From: a virus
Virus record (IMG/VR): IMGVR_UViG_3300013102_000009
Span: 1 to 61,875 of that record
Reading direction: 5' to 3' (one strand)
Length of the DNA: 61,875 bases
Shown: positions 3,656 to 61,875 of the stretch, piece by piece
Layout: each line of letters opens with the position of its first letter
Position numbering within the stretch: the first letter of the stretch is position 1
Notes under the pieces: model-generated
Seen by the model: the letters and a program-made list of their open reading frames with translations, nothing else
What the model was told of the DNA's origin: nothing
The model's database searches: none
Made by a program: the position numbers and the translations under genes

Positions 3656-3858
3656 GCTTCAAGATTGGTGACCGCGTAGTGCCGAAGTTCGGCCAACACT
3701 ATGACGGTCATGAGGGCAAAGACCTTGAGGTAATGGCTATTGATCCTAGAACACCTGACATTTCAGGTGTCGGACTCAAGGGCAATGATCCAGAGATTGA
3801 ACATGACGTAGAGCTTGGTTACGTCTGGTACTACAACCGTGACTTGGAGAAGGTGTGA
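3652..3858 (+). CDS. single-domain SH3/KOW-like protein (68 aa)
   Basis: Almost entirely one SH3/KOW-like unit: FKIGDRVVPKFGQHYDGHEG then a LEVMAIDP strand and an aromatic end YVWYYNRDLEKV. It overlaps both neighbours by four bases (GTGA), so it is translated with the DUF3310 fusion and is probably its paralogue. Function unknown; related proteins are usually annotated hypothetical. Confidence 0.65.
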   Translation: MSFKIGDRVVPKFGQHYDGHEGKDLEVMAIDPRTPDISGVGLKGNDPEIEHDVELGYVWYYNRDLEKV

Positions 3859-5766: not shown

Positions 5767-6049
5767 CCCGCTCACGTGGCAGGTCAAACCCAACTCCAAC
5801 CAAGTAGTTGGAACGCGTTTTCGACGTTCTCTTCTGATCTATAAATATTTATATAAAAAAATATATACAAAAATAAAACAAAAAAAAGAATGAATGAGAG
5901 TAGAGAGAGTGTGTTTTTTGCAGACGGCTGAGGCCAACCCCCTAGAATTCAAGGAAGTTGGCCTCATAACTGTACCGTCTGGTACACAATACATTCTGTC
6001 CGAAAATTTATAGGACGTTCTACCTCAGTAAGGGTAACCTAACCGAAAG
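5767..6049. other. non-coding block A with AT-rich tract
   Basis: No convincing gene. Bases 5838-5892 are almost pure A and T (ATAAATATTTATATAAAAAA and similar), followed by a GA-rich stretch AGTAGAGAGAGTG. The same order (AT tract, GAGAGA, then the GGACAGAATAC inverted repeat) is seen in block B near 36.0-36.3 kb. An unwinding region, boundary or regulatory zone are all possible. Confidence 0.6.
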
Positions 6050-23338: not shown

Positions 23339-23374
23339 CGGGGCAGGTACTCTCTATTGAATACCTGCCCCATT
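23339..23374 (-). terminator. hairpin after protease gene
   Basis: GGGGCAGGTA and TACCTGCCCC form a 10-bp stem around TTCAATAGAGAG. The minus-strand tail is GCTTTACC, without a strong U-run, so it may be an RNA-stabilising hairpin or a weak terminator. Confidence 0.55.
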
Positions 23375-23439
23375 AGCACACCCATTACGGCTTCACAGCG
23401 TTATGCCCCTGTGCTGAGGGAGACAGGATCACCGCCTAA

Positions 23440-35896: not shown

Positions 35897-36182
35897 TATG
35901 TAACCCACGCTCACGGTGTACATGCATAGGCGCACTACACATAGCGGCCAGATAGGGGTTCACTGTTGGGTCGCGATAGTGGACTCTCATTTAGGGCTTG
36001 CACAACTTTTAGGGTGTCTCTCTCATCACTCACTTTATTCTTTTACTAAAATCAATTTCTAAATAAACAAAAAAAATAAATATATATAAGAGAGAAAAAG
36101 TGACCCTGAAGATGTAGACAGTGCCTACATGCCGCATATTCCGCGTGTTCTAGGGGTTTACCTACCCTATCCTGCTAACCTC

Positions 36183-40127: not shown

Positions 40128-40334
40128 TTCTTATCCTTTGCTATGTCGTGTGAGCCATTCACACTATGCGCTGTACGGACTGTATGCCCGTACAACGCCT
40201 AGCGCGTATGCCTTCAGTATCTCTATTGAGTTATCAAACATCCTGTCCAGTGAAGCTGGCCGGTGATTCAATCCCCTGCCCTGCCCCCGAACTTGCTACG
40301 CCTTGAGCCTAATACGGTTCACCTGAAAACACCT

Positions 40335-40471
40335 AATTCCACAGGTTTTTCCACAGAAAAACTGCACTTATCCACAGTTTTTGTGCCTGTATTCACATTC
40401 TGACGTGAGTTATCCACAAAATAATTTCTGCTATCCACAGGTTATCCACAGTTTGAGCCTAGTTATCCACA
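40335..40471 (+). promoter_or_regulatory. DnaA-box array with 21-bp phasing, probable replication origin
   Basis: Perfect TTATCCACA at 40368, 40410, 40442 and 40463. Near matches in the same orientation: TTTTCCACA at 40347, GTATTCACA at 40389, CTATCCACA at 40431, and AATTCCACA at 40335. Starts are 21 bases apart from 40347 to 40431, then 11, then 21. TTATCCACA is the canonical DnaA box; two helical turns per step would put every box on one face of the DNA. Phage-encoded DnaA is not present, so host DnaA is the likely binder. Confidence 0.82.
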
Positions 40472-40479
40472 GATTTTTG

Positions 40480-40495
40480 GTTACTGACCAGTAAC
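40480..40495. promoter_or_regulatory. palindrome GTTACTG-AC-CAGTAAC
   Basis: Perfect 7-bp arms with a 2-base centre, nine bases after the last DnaA box. Operator-like; the protein is unknown. Confidence 0.55.
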
Positions 40496-40612
40496 ATCAC
40501 AGAAAGTTACCATTTTGAGACCATTTCGTTATCAAACTAATTTTTCGCGTGTAGGGATAAAGGAACGTGCACGCGCAAATAACACACAACTGGCGATTCT
40601 GTCAAAACGGGC

Positions 40613-40626
40613 CTAACACGTGTTAG
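40613..40626. promoter_or_regulatory. 14-bp perfect palindrome CTAACACGTGTTAG
   Basis: Self-complementary with no spacer and CACGTG in the centre. Lies between the DnaA boxes and the rightward start. A dimeric regulator site is plausible. Confidence 0.5.
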
Positions 40627-40890
40627 ATTGCCCTCTAACGGCCTCAAAATCGCATAGTGGCACTACCACTCACATTCCGCTCAAAAGTCGCTCACACGCG
40701 AATTTCCACATGGTGGAACTACTTTTGATGCCTATAAGTAAACAACATGCAATTGCATCTACAGTTGACAGTTCACTAATCCATAGGGTAGTAGGGCATT
40801 GTGTCAACGGTACAAACACCATTACAAAGTAGCGCATGGCTTATACGGGAGTCTTTAGAACCTGTCAACTCAGGGGACCCTAACTTGAAT

Positions 40891-40947
40891 GTGCGAAATG
40901 TCAGACATTTCGGGAGTTACGTGAAATGTGCGAAATGTCAGACATTT
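40891..40947. promoter_or_regulatory. two operator-like palindromes, 37 bp apart
   Basis: GTGCGAAATGTCAGACATTT occurs identically at 40891-40910 and 40928-40947. Each has the palindrome AAATGTC-A-GACATTT, extended in the first copy to CGAAATGTCAGACATTTCG. A half site GTGAAATGTG precedes the second. Upstream of the rightward arm by about 260 bases; an early-promoter operator is the simplest reading. Confidence 0.75.
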
Positions 40948-41209
40948 ATAGTTATGCACGCGCTCTGAATAATTATTGACTCCGATGCATATTCATACAT
41001 GAGCGAAGGTAGGACGTCCTATGCTCTACAGCGTGTAGAAGTGAGACGAAACTCTCATTTGTTAATCCAGTGAGTGGAGTAATAGAATGATCGGTCAGTA
41101 GCACATCGGTGTTGGACCTTGACCCTCGCGCGAAAAACTGAAAAGGGGGTAAAGAACCCTCTCACGCGCAAAATCCGGGGGGAATTTTCAATTTGAAAAA
41201 TTTTTTGAG

Positions 41210-49257: not shown

Positions 49258-49426
49258 GAGCAGTAGCTAATCATCCAGCGTGTGGATTTGCAAACTACAA
49301 GCGTGTCGTTATCCAACCGTTATGGAACAAACGTAATTGACTTTGACAAAAGGGTTGACTGTGCTAATGCGGCGGGGTAAGTTTGTATCAGTAGCAAGGA
49401 GCTACCCACTACCGAAAGGCAAGACA
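49258..49426. other. divergent intergenic region
   Basis: 169 bases between the leftward gene 48892-49257 and the DGQHR gene. Contains the rightward promoter at 49343-49370; leftward promoter elements are not clear. Confidence 0.5.
49343..49370 (+). promoter_or_regulatory. promoter TTGACA-N16-TAATGC
   Basis: TTGACA at 49343-49348, spacer 16, TAATGC at 49365-49370 preceded by TG. Two further TTGAC words (49337 and 49355) overlap it. Drives the DGQHR gene. Confidence 0.6.
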
Positions 49427-50623
49427 ATGACTGCAACAGCAACCCTCGCAAAGTCCGTAGCCAACACGGCCAACAAGGCATCCAAGATGGAGATTGCTAC
49501 CACGCTGATCCCCGGCAAGGTGGCAGTGGCCCTCATGACGCCGGACAAGCTGCACGCTCTCAAGTTCGTGTCCTCCTACTCAGCACAAGACCCGCAGAGC
49601 ACGGACACCCACGAGAAGCACGGCTACCAGCGTGATCCTGATGAGTCCCGCTTTCCCGGCATCGGTCGCCACTACTACACAGGTGACAACCGCTACCACA
49701 TCCCGAACCTGCTGGTCTCGGTACGGGTCTACGAACCCAAGCAGCGGACCCGCTTCAACACCCTGTTCAATCAGGGCGCTATCTCCAAAATCCACAAGGA
49801 ATTCGGCACGAGCGTCTTCTCCATCCTTGACGGCCAGCACCGCGAAGGTGGTCTGTTCTACGCATGGAAGAAGTGGGAAGACTTCAACGCCATGATCCCC
49901 ATCACCCTGTACTACGGGATGACCTTTGAAGAGGAAGCACGCCTCTTTGACGAAATCAACACCAAGCAGAAGAAGCTCGCGACGGCGCTGATTGAAGCCA
50001 CGAAGGTCCACCTTGAAGCAGGGGATGACTCCCACGCGCAGAAGCTTCGCGAAATTGCTCTGGGTCTCTCTCAAGATCGTGACTCGGTGTGGAAGAACTT
50101 GGTCAACATGACAGGTGCTCGCGGTAGCGGCAAGCCCGTCTCCTACGCAGCAATGCGGCGCTCCACCGGCTACATGCTTCCAGCACAACTCATGACACGG
50201 TTGGAGGATCGCGGTCTCAACCCGGAGCGAGTCGTGAAGAAGTACTGGGAGTTCGTTGCCAAGGCTTGCGACACGGCTTGGAATGAAGAGCCTGTGTACG
50301 TGGAAGTGGACGGTGAGACCGTACAGGCTGAGGTCAAGTACCGGCTCAAGCACCTTGTGGGGGTGTCCTCAGTCTTCAAGCTGGGAGGGGACATTGCCGG
50401 GACGGCACTGGACAAGTCCGCCAACAACGAGGACTTCTGGAAGATCATGGAAGCCTACGTCGCCAAGCTTGGCGAAGTGGATTGGATCATGGCTCGCAAC
50501 AACCCATGGACCACCACTTCAGCCGGTTACGGCGGCAGTGGGCACCTGTACCAGATGCTCTACGAATTGGTCTACATGGACAAGATGCCCGGTGACGAGG
50601 ACTTGCCGACAGAGAGCAAGTAA
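49427..50623 (+). CDS. DGQHR-domain protein, DndB/ParB-like (398 aa)
   Basis: ATG at 49427 with AAAGGCAAG upstream. Residues 135-139 are DGQHR and residues about 174-185 are FDEINTKQKKL, the two signatures of the DGQHR family that includes DndB, the regulator of DNA phosphorothioation, and ParB-like nucleases. Acts on DNA in some relatives; whether it cuts, modifies or regulates here is unknown. Well-separated promoter and terminator mark it as a single-gene unit. Possible counter-defence role is inference. Confidence 0.78.
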   Translation: MTATATLAKSVANTANKASKMEIATTLIPGKVAVALMTPDKLHALKFVSSYSAQDPQSTDTHEKHGYQRDPDESRFPGIGRHYYTGDNRYHIPNLLVSVRVYEPKQRTRFNTLFNQGAISKIHKEFGTSVFSILDGQHREGGLFYAWKKWEDFNAMIPITLYYGMTFEEEARLFDEINTKQKKLATALIEATKVHLEAGDDSHAQKLREIALGLSQDRDSVWKNLVNMTGARGSGKPVSYAAMRRSTGYMLPAQLMTRLEDRGLNPERVVKKYWEFVAKACDTAWNEEPVYVEVDGETVQAEVKYRLKHLVGVSSVFKLGGDIAGTALDKSANNEDFWKIMEAYVAKLGEVDWIMARNNPWTTTSAGYGGSGHLYQMLYELVYMDKMPGDEDLPTESK

Positions 50624-56864: not shown

Positions 56865-56899
56865 CAGAAGGCCACTCAGAAATGGGTGGCCTTCTGTTT
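56865..56899 (+). terminator. terminator before the primase gene
   Basis: CAGAAGGCCAC and GTGGCCTTCTG form an 11-bp stem around TCAGAAATGG, followed by TTTA. Separates the recombination unit from the replication unit. Confidence 0.82.
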
Positions 56900-56908
56900 A
56901 GCCACATC

Positions 56909-56938
56909 GGATAGAATACAGGGGAATTATGCTAAGCT
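56909..56938 (+). promoter_or_regulatory. GGATAGAATACAGGGGA element with -10 TGCTAAGCT
   Basis: One base differs from GGACAGAATACAGGGGA of block B. TGCTAAGCT (extended -10, TAAGCT at 56933-56938) follows 8 bases later, so the element sits over the usual -35 position. Start of the primase transcript 29 bases before its GTG. Confidence 0.6.
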
Positions 56939-56966
56939 GGACTTTTGGCTTGAAAGAGGGAACAGA

Positions 56967-59192
56967 GTGACACCGATCTACGAGGACTTCCTACGGCAAG
57001 TGTGGGGAGAGCAGGAAGGGCACGTTGACATTGCCCGGATGAACGAACACAAGGAACTGCGACGGCACAAGTTCTTCCAGTGGCCTGCACAGGCTGAGGA
57101 TGTGTTCCAGTACATCGAGAAGTACAAACACGAGGACGTGTACTTTACTCCGGTCTTGTTCCGTGGTCCCAAGAGGCTTCGTGTGCTGGCTCAATACGCT
57201 ACCGTAGTCTACGGTGACGCTGATGACTTCAACCTTGATGACATCCGTGTAGAGCCTTCCATCGTGGTCCGTACCTCCCCCGAGAAGACTCACCTGTATT
57301 GGTTCATTGATGAAATGACCGATGCCCGTTTGGCTGAGACCCTTTCTCACTCTGTCTCAGTAGCACATCCGAAGAAGCAGACCGGCTTTGACGATGGGTG
57401 GTCTTGCACCAAGCTTCTGCGTGTTCCCGGCACCACGAACACCAAGTACTTTGAAGACAAGGGTGAAGTCTACGAAGTCACGATGGAGCACACCGGCCTT
57501 ACGTACACAGAAGAAGAGTTCACTCAGTTCTACCCTGCCGTGCCCGAGTTTGAATTTGAGCCCTCCCCGTTCCCCGAAGAGACTCAGATTCCGAGCTACG
57601 CCGAAGTGCTTGGCCAGATTCCTACGTCCTCGCGACTGGAAAGCCTTCTCAACACCAATCAATTCGACAAGGGTAGCTCTGGCTCTGAAGCCCTCTACGC
57701 GCTCTACACCGAACTCTTCTCGCTGGGTGCCACGGACATTCAGGTGTTCGTTGTCGCTAAGCACTCTGAACTGAACAAGTGGCACCGTGACGGCGACTCT
57801 GGCGCTGACAAGAAGCTCTGGGATGACGTACAGCGTGCCCGAGCCAAGGACGGCATCTTCATCGACGGTGACGTTGAAGAAGAGGGTGAGGACGTTGTTA
57901 TCACCGTCGCGCCCAAGAAGAAGACCAAGGGCTTTGACTTCCTCACGCCTTACGAGAAGGAAAACCTGAACCGTACCTTCGTGGATGAATACCTCTCGTG
58001 GGCAACGTCCAAGACTGACGCTCCCGAGCAGTACCACATTGCCGGTGCATTCACTGTGCTGGCTACGATCTTCAGCGACTTTGGGCACGCTTCCCCTCAC
58101 TGGGGAGATACCCCGTTGAATCTGTGGTTCATGGTTCTGGGAAGCACAACGCTCTCGCGTAAGTCCACCACCAAGTCTCTGATGCTCAAGTGCATTGAGT
58201 CTGTGGAGACTGAGAACTACACCTACGATCTTGGTTCCAAGTTCACTGCTGAAGGTCTGGATGAAGCTCTGCGTGCCGGTGCCAACCGTTCCGCTCTGCT
58301 GCACCGTGACGAAATTCAGGGCTTCATGAAGGAGATTGACAGCAAGGCGTATCTCGCTGGCATCAAGGGTGAACTCACCGAAATCTACGACGGCAAGGTG
58401 ACTGGCAAGCTGAGGGCTTCCGGTGAGGACAAGGACAAACAGCGCAAGGGTGCTCGCGTGGCTCTGAACCTGTTCACCATGGGTATCCGTGACCAACTTG
58501 CCGATTACCTCACGCTGGAGGACTTCCAGAGTGGTTTCTTGACTCGCTTCATCTACGTCCACTCAGAGACCCCCGAGCGTACCAAGGAATCTGACTACGT
58601 TCGCCAGCAGGACGCCAACGAACGTACCAAGGGTGACCCTGCCTTCAACAGCATGATTGAGAAGCTGAAGGAAGCGCGTGATGCTTGGGAAGACTGGAAT
58701 GATCCGACCGAGCGCACCATTGCCGTGCCTTGCACGGAAGAGGCTTGGGAACGCTGGAATGTCTTCATCACCGCTGCCTTGGATGCAGCACAGGGGGAGG
58801 CACGTTCAAACGTCCTTGAGGCAGGCGCTTCACGTCTGAACACGTCGGTTCTGAAGGCTGCAACGGTCTTGGCTATGGCTGACATGTGCGAAGAGGTTCA
58901 ACTGTCCCACATGCTGGCTGCTATCAATTACTGTGGCCAGTGGTTTGAGCACCTTGTAGCCATGACTGAACGCATCTCTGAGAGCGGCTGGAAGCGCCAG
59001 CAGGAGAAGCTTGCTGAACTTCTGGTGGCCAACGCTGGGGAAATCTCGTGGAAGGCTGCATACCGCGCGTTCTCTGCTGAGTTGAAGCCCAAAGCGTTCA
59101 TTGAATTGGTTCAAGCTCTGGAAGAGGCAGGACGCCTTACCATTGCCAAGAGCCGCAACAACAAGACCCTTGTAAGCACGGAGTTGTACTAG
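56967..59192 (+). CDS. primase-helicase (741 aa)
   Basis: GTG at 56967 chosen for AGAGGGAAC upstream. Residues about 60-260 (ATVVYGDADDFNLDDI.. VVRTSPEKTHLYWF) resemble an AEP-type primase with D-x-D. The C-terminal half (VLGSTTLSRKSTTKSLMLK Walker A-like, LLHRDEIQGF, FTMGIRDQLADYL) is the DUF3987-like helicase core. One protein would supply both primer and unwinding activity. Just upstream of polymerase. Confidence 0.82.
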   Translation: MTPIYEDFLRQVWGEQEGHVDIARMNEHKELRRHKFFQWPAQAEDVFQYIEKYKHEDVYFTPVLFRGPKRLRVLAQYATVVYGDADDFNLDDIRVEPSIVVRTSPEKTHLYWFIDEMTDARLAETLSHSVSVAHPKKQTGFDDGWSCTKLLRVPGTTNTKYFEDKGEVYEVTMEHTGLTYTEEEFTQFYPAVPEFEFEPSPFPEETQIPSYAEVLGQIPTSSRLESLLNTNQFDKGSSGSEALYALYTELFSLGATDIQVFVVAKHSELNKWHRDGDSGADKKLWDDVQRARAKDGIFIDGDVEEEGEDVVITVAPKKKTKGFDFLTPYEKENLNRTFVDEYLSWATSKTDAPEQYHIAGAFTVLATIFSDFGHASPHWGDTPLNLWFMVLGSTTLSRKSTTKSLMLKCIESVETENYTYDLGSKFTAEGLDEALRAGANRSALLHRDEIQGFMKEIDSKAYLAGIKGELTEIYDGKVTGKLRASGEDKDKQRKGARVALNLFTMGIRDQLADYLTLEDFQSGFLTRFIYVHSETPERTKESDYVRQQDANERTKGDPAFNSMIEKLKEARDAWEDWNDPTERTIAVPCTEEAWERWNVFITAALDAAQGEARSNVLEAGASRLNTSVLKAATVLAMADMCEEVQLSHMLAAINYCGQWFEHLVAMTERISESGWKRQQEKLAELLVANAGEISWKAAYRAFSAELKPKAFIELVQALEEAGRLTIAKSRNNKTLVSTELY

Positions 59193-59581: not shown

Positions 59582-59739
59582 AGACAGCTAAGGTTACGAT
59601 CCACAAGAATCCTCACGGTATGTGGGAAATTGGCACCCTTACCCCGTTGGAAGACGGCGAAGAGCTTTATCAGAACCGCCATGAGGCTTCCACGTGGGAA
59701 GACGCTGCCAAGTGGGTAGAAGCTCACTATGTCAAGTAA
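59578..59739 (+). CDS. hypothetical small protein (53 aa)
   Basis: GTG in a four-base overlap. KTAKVTIHKNPHGMWEIGTL then TWEDAAKWVEAHYVK: a compact beta-hairpin and helix. Overlaps the polymerase start by 11 bases. Confidence 0.6.
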   Translation: MKTAKVTIHKNPHGMWEIGTLTPLEDGEELYQNRHEASTWEDAAKWVEAHYVK

Positions 59740-61875
59740 GGTATACCTTCACAGCGCCGATCCTATTCGGCCACAAGCTCTCGCAATTCTCAAGGCCGCT
59801 AAGGAAGCTGCTGGGATTACCGAGACCCTGAACTTCATACCGATGCCAGAGAAGCCGTTCAAGAACATCCCGATTATGTCTCTTGGGCGGCTGCCCTGTG
59901 AGGTCTACAACCGTGTCATCTTGGCACCGTCTGTAGGCTCGCTGGTGACCAAGGCTGACAGCCTCACACGCATGACTGACGCCTTCAAGCTGCTGGTGAA
60001 TGACGTGGACCTTGGGGAGATGCACTACAAGGTTGAAGAGCGAATTGACTGGCTGGTAACGTACCTGAACGCCACCAACGGGAGGCTGGTGTCGTTTGAC
60101 ATCGAAACCTCTGGTGACGTGAAGTTCGACAAGCCTCACTACGATCAGGTCATCTCTGTGGCCATGTGGGGCGGCACCGGCTCTGCCATGGTGATCCCCG
60201 AGCATGTGCTGAGGGATGATCGTGTCCGCAACGCTCTGGACATCTTTGTACGGTCCAACAAGATCATCACCGTCAACGGCAAGTTCGACCTCAGCTATTT
60301 CAGTGAGGGTGCACAGCACTACTTTGACGTGATGCTGGCTCACTATGCCCTGTTCCCTGCTGGCAGCACACACGGTCTGAAGGACTTGGCAGACCAGTAC
60401 TTTGGCTCTGGTGACTGGGATGCAGGGAACAAGCCCTACACCGTGGCAAAGACATACAAGGAAGCCGGGACCGGCGAAGACGGCGTGTGGTGGAGTGCTC
60501 GCAAGTACAGCGGTGGTTCTGGCTACGAACGTATCCCGCGTTCCATCCTGTACGAGTACAACGCCTATGACGTGTTCTACACGTGGCACCTGTACAAGCT
60601 CATGGAGGATTACCTAGCACAAGACCCTGACTCGCGCAAAGCCTACGACTGGCTCATGCGCCTGTCTGACATGTTCGCTGGTGTGGAGCGTCGTGGTATC
60701 CGGTTGGATGTCGAGTACCTTGAAGAGCTTGAAGTGGAGATGAAGGCTGAACTGTTTGAGGCAGAGCAAGCCTTCTGTGAAACGGCTGGCAGGGTTGTCA
60801 ACCCACGCTCTCACGTACAGGTCAAGGACTGGCTACTGGAGAATGGTTGCCGTGTCAAGAGTTCTGACAAGCCCACGATCAAGAAGCTGATCGAGCACGC
60901 ACGTGTGCCCGAACATGTCAAGGACTTCTGCCGTGCTCTGACGAAGTGCCGGTTCATCTCCAAACAACTCAGCACATACGTGACTGGCTACTTGGCTCAC
61001 GTCAAGGAAGGTGGCTTTGTCCACCCCGGCTACAAGCTTCACGCAGCCTCTACGGGCCGTCTGGGAGGCGCTGGAGCTTCCATGCTCACAATCCCCCGCG
61101 ACAAGCGTTTGAAGCGCATGGTGCTGCCTTCAAAGCCCGGTGACGTGATCGTAACTGGTGACCTCTCACAGGCAGAGTTGCGTGTCATGGCTCTGGAGAG
61201 CATGGATCAGTGGATGATTGATGCCTTTGCCCCTGATGCCGGTGACATCTTCGACATTCTGCTTTCGGCGGCTGATCCCACCAAGGATTGGGCAGAGCTT
61301 CACCGACGTGCTGATGAAGGTGACGATCCGGGGCAGTTCTACCAGACTTGGCGTGCGTACATGAAGGGTGTAGTGTACGGTGTATCCTTTGGGCGTGGTG
61401 TGGCAGCAATCGCCGCAGCGCTTGAGATTACATTTGAACGTGCACAGCAGCTTGTCAACGGTTTCGTGCGTCCCGGCAGTGCGTTCGCCTTGTGGCGTGA
61501 AGAGATTGAAGATAAGGCTAAGACTGGTGGGGAAATCATCACCAAGTTTGGCCGTCACTTCCAGTCTGAGATTGTCACGGCGAAGAATGAGCATGAGGTT
61601 GTCAACTCAGCCTTGAGCTTCACTTCACAAAGCACAGCCAACGACATTTGCTTGCTGGCAGCGCTCAACCTTGACCCGCAGCTTGCACAGTACAACGCTA
61701 CGCTCATGGGCACGATCCACGATGCTATCTACGTGTCTTGCCCTGAAGAACACAAGCTTGCCGTAGGCTTGCTGATCCAGAAGTGCTTGCGTGAAGCAGG
61801 CGAAGAAGTATACGGCGATTTGATCCCCTTCAAGGCTGACGCTGAGTGGGGACACAACATGGCTTACACCGAGAA
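59729..61875 (+). CDS. DNA polymerase I with 3'-5' exonuclease (719 aa, cut at window end)
   Basis: Replicative family A polymerase. Exonuclease motifs: SFDIETSG (D124), VNGKFDLSYF, and YNAYDVFYTWHL. Polymerase motifs: A GDLSQAELRVMALES (D478), B KGVVYGVSFG, C TIHDAIYV (HD near 664-665). Residues 1-100 are an extra region of unknown role. Reading continues through the window join to base 136. No 5'-nuclease domain. ATG at 59729 overlaps the previous gene. Confidence 0.93.
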   Translation, partial: MSSKVYLHSADPIRPQALAILKAAKEAAGITETLNFIPMPEKPFKNIPIMSLGRLPCEVYNRVILAPSVGSLVTKADSLTRMTDAFKLLVNDVDLGEMHYKVEERIDWLVTYLNATNGRLVSFDIETSGDVKFDKPHYDQVISVAMWGGTGSAMVIPEHVLRDDRVRNALDIFVRSNKIITVNGKFDLSYFSEGAQHYFDVMLAHYALFPAGSTHGLKDLADQYFGSGDWDAGNKPYTVAKTYKEAGTGEDGVWWSARKYSGGSGYERIPRSILYEYNAYDVFYTWHLYKLMEDYLAQDPDSRKAYDWLMRLSDMFAGVERRGIRLDVEYLEELEVEMKAELFEAEQAFCETAGRVVNPRSHVQVKDWLLENGCRVKSSDKPTIKKLIEHARVPEHVKDFCRALTKCRFISKQLSTYVTGYLAHVKEGGFVHPGYKLHAASTGRLGGAGASMLTIPRDKRLKRMVLPSKPGDVIVTGDLSQAELRVMALESMDQWMIDAFAPDAGDIFDILLSAADPTKDWAELHRRADEGDDPGQFYQTWRAYMKGVVYGVSFGRGVAAIAAALEITFERAQQLVNGFVRPGSAFALWREEIEDKAKTGGEIITKFGRHFQSEIVTAKNEHEVVNSALSFTSQSTANDICLLAALNLDPQLAQYNATLMGTIHDAIYVSCPEEHKLAVGLLIQKCLREAGEEVYGDLIPFKADAEWGHNMAYTE
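61753..61875. repeat. terminal direct repeat, right copy
   Basis: Identical to 1-123. See the left copy for interpretation. If removed, one continuous polymerase gene remains. Confidence 0.95.

Follow-up and report, generated by a model that had tools for sequence, protein, structure and literature searches.

The phage contig analysed here carries an array of eight DnaA-box sites, all in one orientation and mainly at two-turn steps, which probably works like an oriC module, as judged from its sequence and conservation. The window, meaning the whole 61,875-nucleotide stretch of DNA analysed, is an IMG/VR virus contig of an Amigovirus-like phage whose primase and portal proteins are ~48-51% identical to those of the Arthrobacter phages Amigo and Molivia. 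To the left of the array lies a minus-strand lysis/tail/head/portal/terminase arm and to the right a plus-strand DNA-metabolism arm (Table 1). The preliminary description had placed the array at the only point where the two arms diverge, and this fits the ORF and family calls; the detrended cumulative GC skew also has its minimum there, at ~40782-40785, and its maximum at 3857, near the convergence of the arms. Besides the polymerase and primase-helicase, the phage encodes a Sak4-like protein, an SSB-like protein and a Cas4-like exonuclease. Linkage to dnaA is common for oriC, though not universal; the DnaA family PF08299 is absent from the whole record, and no recognised Rep gene lies beside the array, both flanking genes matching no Pfam or PHROG family. 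Elsewhere in the window, a 428-aa protein (49337-50623) matches DndB-like (DNA sulfur modification) proteins and, weakly, ParB-like ones, and the segment 39275-39354 is a dispersed repeat that matches three separate places in the related phage G052 at 78-80% identity and may be a cassette with a promoter or terminator for the left arm.

Table 1. Features of the control region and of the genes referred to in the text (positions in the window)
Feature	Position	Strand	Remarks
First left-arm gene, 128 aa	39741..40127	-	No Pfam/PHROG match
Noncoding divergent control region	40128..41209	.	Holds the array
Degenerate first box AATTCCACA	40335..40343	+	3 mismatches
Box TTTTCCACA	40347..40355	+	1 mismatch
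Perfect DnaA box TTATCCACA	40368..40376	+	
Box GTATTCACA	40389..40397	+	2 mismatches
Perfect DnaA box TTATCCACA	40410..40418	+	
Box CTATCCACA	40431..40439	+	1 mismatch
Perfect DnaA box TTATCCACA	40442..40450	+	11-bp step after preceding box
Perfect DnaA box TTATCCACA	40463..40471	+	Final box of the array
AT-rich 3' flank	40472..40545	+	Candidate unwinding element, from AT content
Perfect inverted repeat GTTACTG-AC-CAGTAAC	40480..40495	.	Followed by TTACC-type repeats
Distal element TTCCAC-ATG-GTGGAA	40704..40718	.	~240 bp 3' of the array
First right-arm gene, 175 aa	41210..41737	+	No Pfam/PHROG match; no recognised initiator
Phage primase-helicase	56886..59192	+	DUF3987, weak RepB_primase match; query for relatives
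Family A DNA polymerase	59729..61873	+	Open at contig end

The DnaA-box array in the window is real. Its starts, its steps (12, 21, 21, 21, 21, 11 and 21 bp) and its single plus-strand orientation are exactly as first described. Four perfect boxes and four near matches had been reported; the perfect boxes and two with one mismatch stand, but the site at 40389 has two mismatches and that at 40335 has three, so that 'near match' is generous for the latter, a register that holds a better box in relatives (TTTTCCACA / CTTTCCACA). Outside the array, the 61.9-kb record contains a single perfect TTATCCACA, at 1636. When boxes with up to one mismatch were counted over the whole window against shuffled sequence, as the preliminary description had proposed, 26 were found compared to 10.7 expected, and none of 100 shuffles reached that number. 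Locally, six such boxes fall on one strand within 140 bp, compared to a maximum of two in 2000 dinucleotide shuffles of the 1.1-kb noncoding region, and no other place in the window exceeds this count (up to one mismatch, one strand, 140 bp). The cluster is far above chance and helically phased in one orientation.

Relatives were gathered by a scan with primase alignment, which returned 40 related loci; among the close relatives (58-70% primase identity), only G052 (61.4 kb) and G054 (61.1 kb) were seen to span the control region. In both of these nearest near-full-length relatives, whose primases are 70% and 63% identical, the array sought by the earlier reader is present at the same place, in the same orientation and in synteny, with eight boxes and the two-turn phase retained (steps of 12, 21, 21, 21, 22, 21 and 20 bp in G052 and 12, 21, 21, 21, 21, 21 and 20 bp in G054). 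Between the three arrays the boxes are 85-93% identical and the spacers 37-42% identical in ungapped comparison: boxes match at 46-47 of 54 positions and spacers at 19-20 of 51 when the window is compared with either relative, and at 67 of 72 and 30 of 71 when the relatives are compared with each other. By this measure the array is conserved in the nearest relatives while its spacers diverge. Further away, at ~48% primase identity or below, no cluster of perfect boxes occurs in the long related records, and when Amigo and Molivia are aligned with the window they lack the array block, although flanking segments align. Searches with the first right-arm protein or the 499-aa helicase found no close relatives. 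In the same control region, Amigo has GTACAA-type repeats at spacings of ~9 and 11-12 bp, or 20-21 bp per pair (locus L006, 5080-5180), a different phased array where DnaA boxes are lacking.

The DNA on the 3' side of the array is AT-rich, at 65% in its first 60 bp and 62% in 120 bp compared to 47.7% for the window, and its segment 40496-40545 is the 11th weakest non-overlapping 50-mer in the window. Over 60 bp, the 3' AT content of the window, G052 and G054 is 65, 58 and 67% against genome values of 48, 46 and 44%, with the 5' flank near background in all three, and dnaA-linked chromosomal arrays show the same 3' AT-rich polarity. In each of the three phages the cumulative GC skew reaches its minimum 300-500 bp away from the array, on the 3' side. 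Thus an AT-rich element adjoins the boxes and strand composition switches at the site, but the skew minimum is not independent evidence, because GC skew also follows divergent transcription. The weakest DNA in the window is found in two extremely AT-rich 50-mers at 5837-5886 and 36040-36089, within a phage of 52% GC.

Several other elements were noted in the control region. At the position of the inverted repeat beside the array, G054 has GTTACT-GGCG-AGTAAC. The distal element is common to the window, Amigo and Molivia and lies within a noncoding segment, 40684-40743 (TTCCACATGGTGGAA...TTTTGATGCCTATAAGTAAAC), that is 85-92% identical to both, with no further DNA similarity to them within the surrounding 7.9 kb. 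We considered this segment as a part of the array and rejected this, treating it as a separate element that is not in the closer relatives G052 and G054; at about the place of the distal element, ~245-256 bp 3' of the array, these two have a box pair with an 11-bp step. The two copies of a perfect 23-bp direct repeat, AATGTGCGAAATGTCAGACATTT, at 40888-40910 and 40925-40947, each contain an inverted repeat and, lying upstream of the right arm, resemble a pair of operators; a 65-bp noncoding stretch upstream of the first right-arm gene (41018-41082) is 79% identical in G052 within diverged noncoding surroundings. An Rfam search returned two tRNAs and no other RNA family, single-strand folding of the region was unremarkable (z -1.3), and no obvious DnaA-trio repeats were seen by eye beside the boxes.

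To place the array in context, steps between boxes were examined across viral contigs. In IMG/VR, the steps of direct pairs of perfect boxes pile up at 11-12, 20-22 and 29-34 bp, with almost none of 14-19 or 25-28 bp; steps of 11-12, 21 and 32 bp dominate (R=0.69 at 10.5 bp), 11-12 bp being the commonest viral step. A control with the reversed motif (the same nine bases backwards) gave a 3-bp coding period instead, and inverted box pairs are helically phased too, with a different offset. After similar contigs were clustered, 83 of 95 steps were on phase, for which a p-value is descriptive only because the phase classes were picked after seeing the data. Counts of arrays per collection are lower bounds: at least 120 IMG/VR contigs, in 63 sequence clusters, contain three perfect boxes at 20-22 bp steps, compared to one contig in the whole collection for the off-phase control of three perfect boxes at 25-27 bp steps. 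These triple arrays lie inside ORFs of at least 100 aa in 7% of cases compared to 61% of random positions. Contamination by chromosomal oriC as the source of the viral arrays was rejected: no DnaA was found in 50 triple-array contigs, where the DnaA C-terminal domain was sought, or in 50 contigs of the pair set, nor by tblastn in 472 viral loci, and 22 of the 50 checked triple-array contigs encode a terminase of one PHROG family. As a class, viral arrays have flanks enriched in AT by only 2.7% and 1.5%, compared to 12.5% and 17.9% for dnaA-linked chromosomal arrays, so that a general rule of an AT-rich 3' side in viral arrays is not supported. The relation of array polarity to skew sign was positive in 39 of 52 viral triple arrays and in 21 of 31 after dereplication (p=0.07), so that this association is only suggestive.

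Named phages were found through a weak BLAST search and their boxes then verified by reading; these are Lactococcus phages WRP3 and phiL47, Klebsiella phages Koku and S16a, Escherichia phage nasanit, Vibrio phage BD1, microvirus mar39 and gokushovirus WZ-2015a. Koku has T7-like replication genes yet carries eight boxes between its late and early modules (steps of 11, 22, 20, 22, 21, 33 and 22 bp); in T7 itself the first 6.5 kb contain no perfect box. The 5.2-kb genome of the ssDNA gokushovirus WZ-2015a holds six boxes, five of them perfect, with steps of 11, 21, 21, 21 and 11 bp (locus L658, 1514-1607).

What do these arrays bind? Escherichia coli DnaA requires box pairs with 2-3 bp gaps, that is, 11-12 bp steps (PMC11317965), and because this is the commonest viral step, host DnaA is very likely the reader of the boxes. 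The first part of the original proposal, that host DnaA sites form a phased array here, has good support from the consensus match, from spacing kept despite spacer drift and from phasing across viral contigs with a strong off-phase control. The second part, a replication origin, appears plausible given the 3' AT-rich flank, the skew minimum and the divergent noncoding region, and on balance we favour a DnaA-assisted origin in this lineage. The array would act as a docking platform for host DnaA, whose boxes, all on one helical face (steps of two turns, and 11-12 bp near the ends), would allow co-operative assembly of DnaA monomers in one orientation. The resulting filament would most likely open the AT-rich DNA at the 3' end of the array, and bidirectional replication could then begin from the divergent control region, after which the phage would install its own primase-helicase, polymerase and SSB-like protein. 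We infer in this way that DnaA binding, DNA opening and replication start take place at the array.

Against an origin, viral arrays as a class have almost no AT-rich flank, relatives do without the array at ~48% primase identity or less, the window phage encodes a polymerase, a primase-helicase and an SSB-like protein of its own, and arrays are also found in phages not expected to need DnaA, such as Koku and the ssDNA gokushoviruses. Because of the caveats of skew, class flanks and self-sufficient phages, we hold the origin as only somewhat probable and weigh it against control of transcription and titration of DnaA. DnaA on the array might repress or activate divergent early promoters and so tie phage expression to the host DnaA-ATP level. 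DnaA is known to act as a transcription factor and to bind pairs of boxes 2-3 bp apart (PMC11317965), the array sits in the only divergent noncoding region, and operator-like repeats lie in its flanks (40704-40718 and 40888-40947); however, the first right-arm gene is more than 700 bp away, the two promoter-like sites of the control region do not exceed shuffles (mean 2.5), and eight boxes in a two-turn register exceed the need of a switch, making this unlikely. We consider it slightly less likely still that the array is a sponge, by which multiplying phage DNA would titrate DnaA, stop new rounds of host chromosome replication and spare nucleotides for the phage. Arrays in phages with self-sufficient or unrelated replication modes (Koku, WRP3 with steps of 21, 21 and 20 bp, and gokushovirus WZ-2015a) and the flanks of viral arrays as a class are in line with titration, but it requires neither a single orientation nor one fixed site at the divergence point, and in this lineage an AT-rich 3' flank and a GC-skew minimum lie beside the array.

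Iteron arrays are often phased at 20-22 bp, and Amigo has its own repeats in the corresponding region, so the boxes might be look-alikes of DnaA boxes, bound as iterons by an initiator or repressor that the phage itself encodes. This is very improbable: the boxes match the DnaA consensus exactly, many unrelated viruses and bacterial genomes share their 9-mer and phase, and no recognised initiator is among the genes adjoining the array. Chance, or a chromosomal oriC fragment joined by mis-assembly, has nothing in its favour except the short motif and is excluded because the array is conserved in relatives, the shuffle test, the synteny in two relatives and the absence of a DnaA gene from the window and from the checked viral contigs that carry arrays all arguing the same way.

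The array preferred here as an origin resembles chromosomal oriC arrays in its 9-mer, tandem orientation, helical phase and AT-rich 3' side, but it has no adjoining dnaA, lies in a phage that encodes a primase-helicase and a polymerase itself, and has mainly two-turn steps. DnaA boxes are known in plasmid and P1 origins. P1 oriR, RK2 and pSC101 are likewise mobile replicons that recruit host DnaA through boxes in a control region; in them a few boxes are joined by iterons and a cognate Rep protein, and no Rep is recognised beside the window array. No regular two-turn phase is known for datA or DARS. These DnaA-titrating and reactivating loci are DnaA-box clusters outside oriC (PMC5835720), and as chromosomal regulatory loci they differ from a phage array. 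Lactococcus phage WRP3 (Audreyjarvisvirus) has same-strand boxes at 23367-23437 in a 2.5-kb divergent noncoding region, but it is an unrelated phage with fewer boxes, and its record has no origin annotation there. The layout was unfamiliar to the earlier reader, although viral contigs commonly have it, as do bacterial genomes, where at least 119 loci have three boxes at 20-22 bp steps (dnaA within the fetched stretch of up to 8 kb in 26 of 119). That impression holds for the open full-text literature, which yielded nothing on two-turn-phased DnaA arrays in phages, a weak absence with subscription papers outside its scope. It did yield one predicted phage origin with DnaA boxes, the Ori-Finder prediction for Pseudomonas phage vB_PseuGesM_254; this concerns one phage, and the passage concerned mentions neither two-turn phasing nor conservation analysis (PMC11512268).

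Two-turn-phased DnaA-box arrays may, we tentatively suggest, be a general and largely undescribed viral module, built independently in many unrelated bacterial viruses (actinobacterial siphoviruses, T7-like podoviruses and ssDNA microviruses) to seize host DnaA, with the role of an origin in some and of a sponge or switch in others. The usual view is that phages bypass DnaA if they bring replication genes of their own. Finding a conserved platform for this protein, rigidly phased, in a phage of that kind and in many others suggests that host-DnaA control is a common viral strategy, and the phage arrays offer compact natural material for testing DnaA filament formation on double-stranded DNA.
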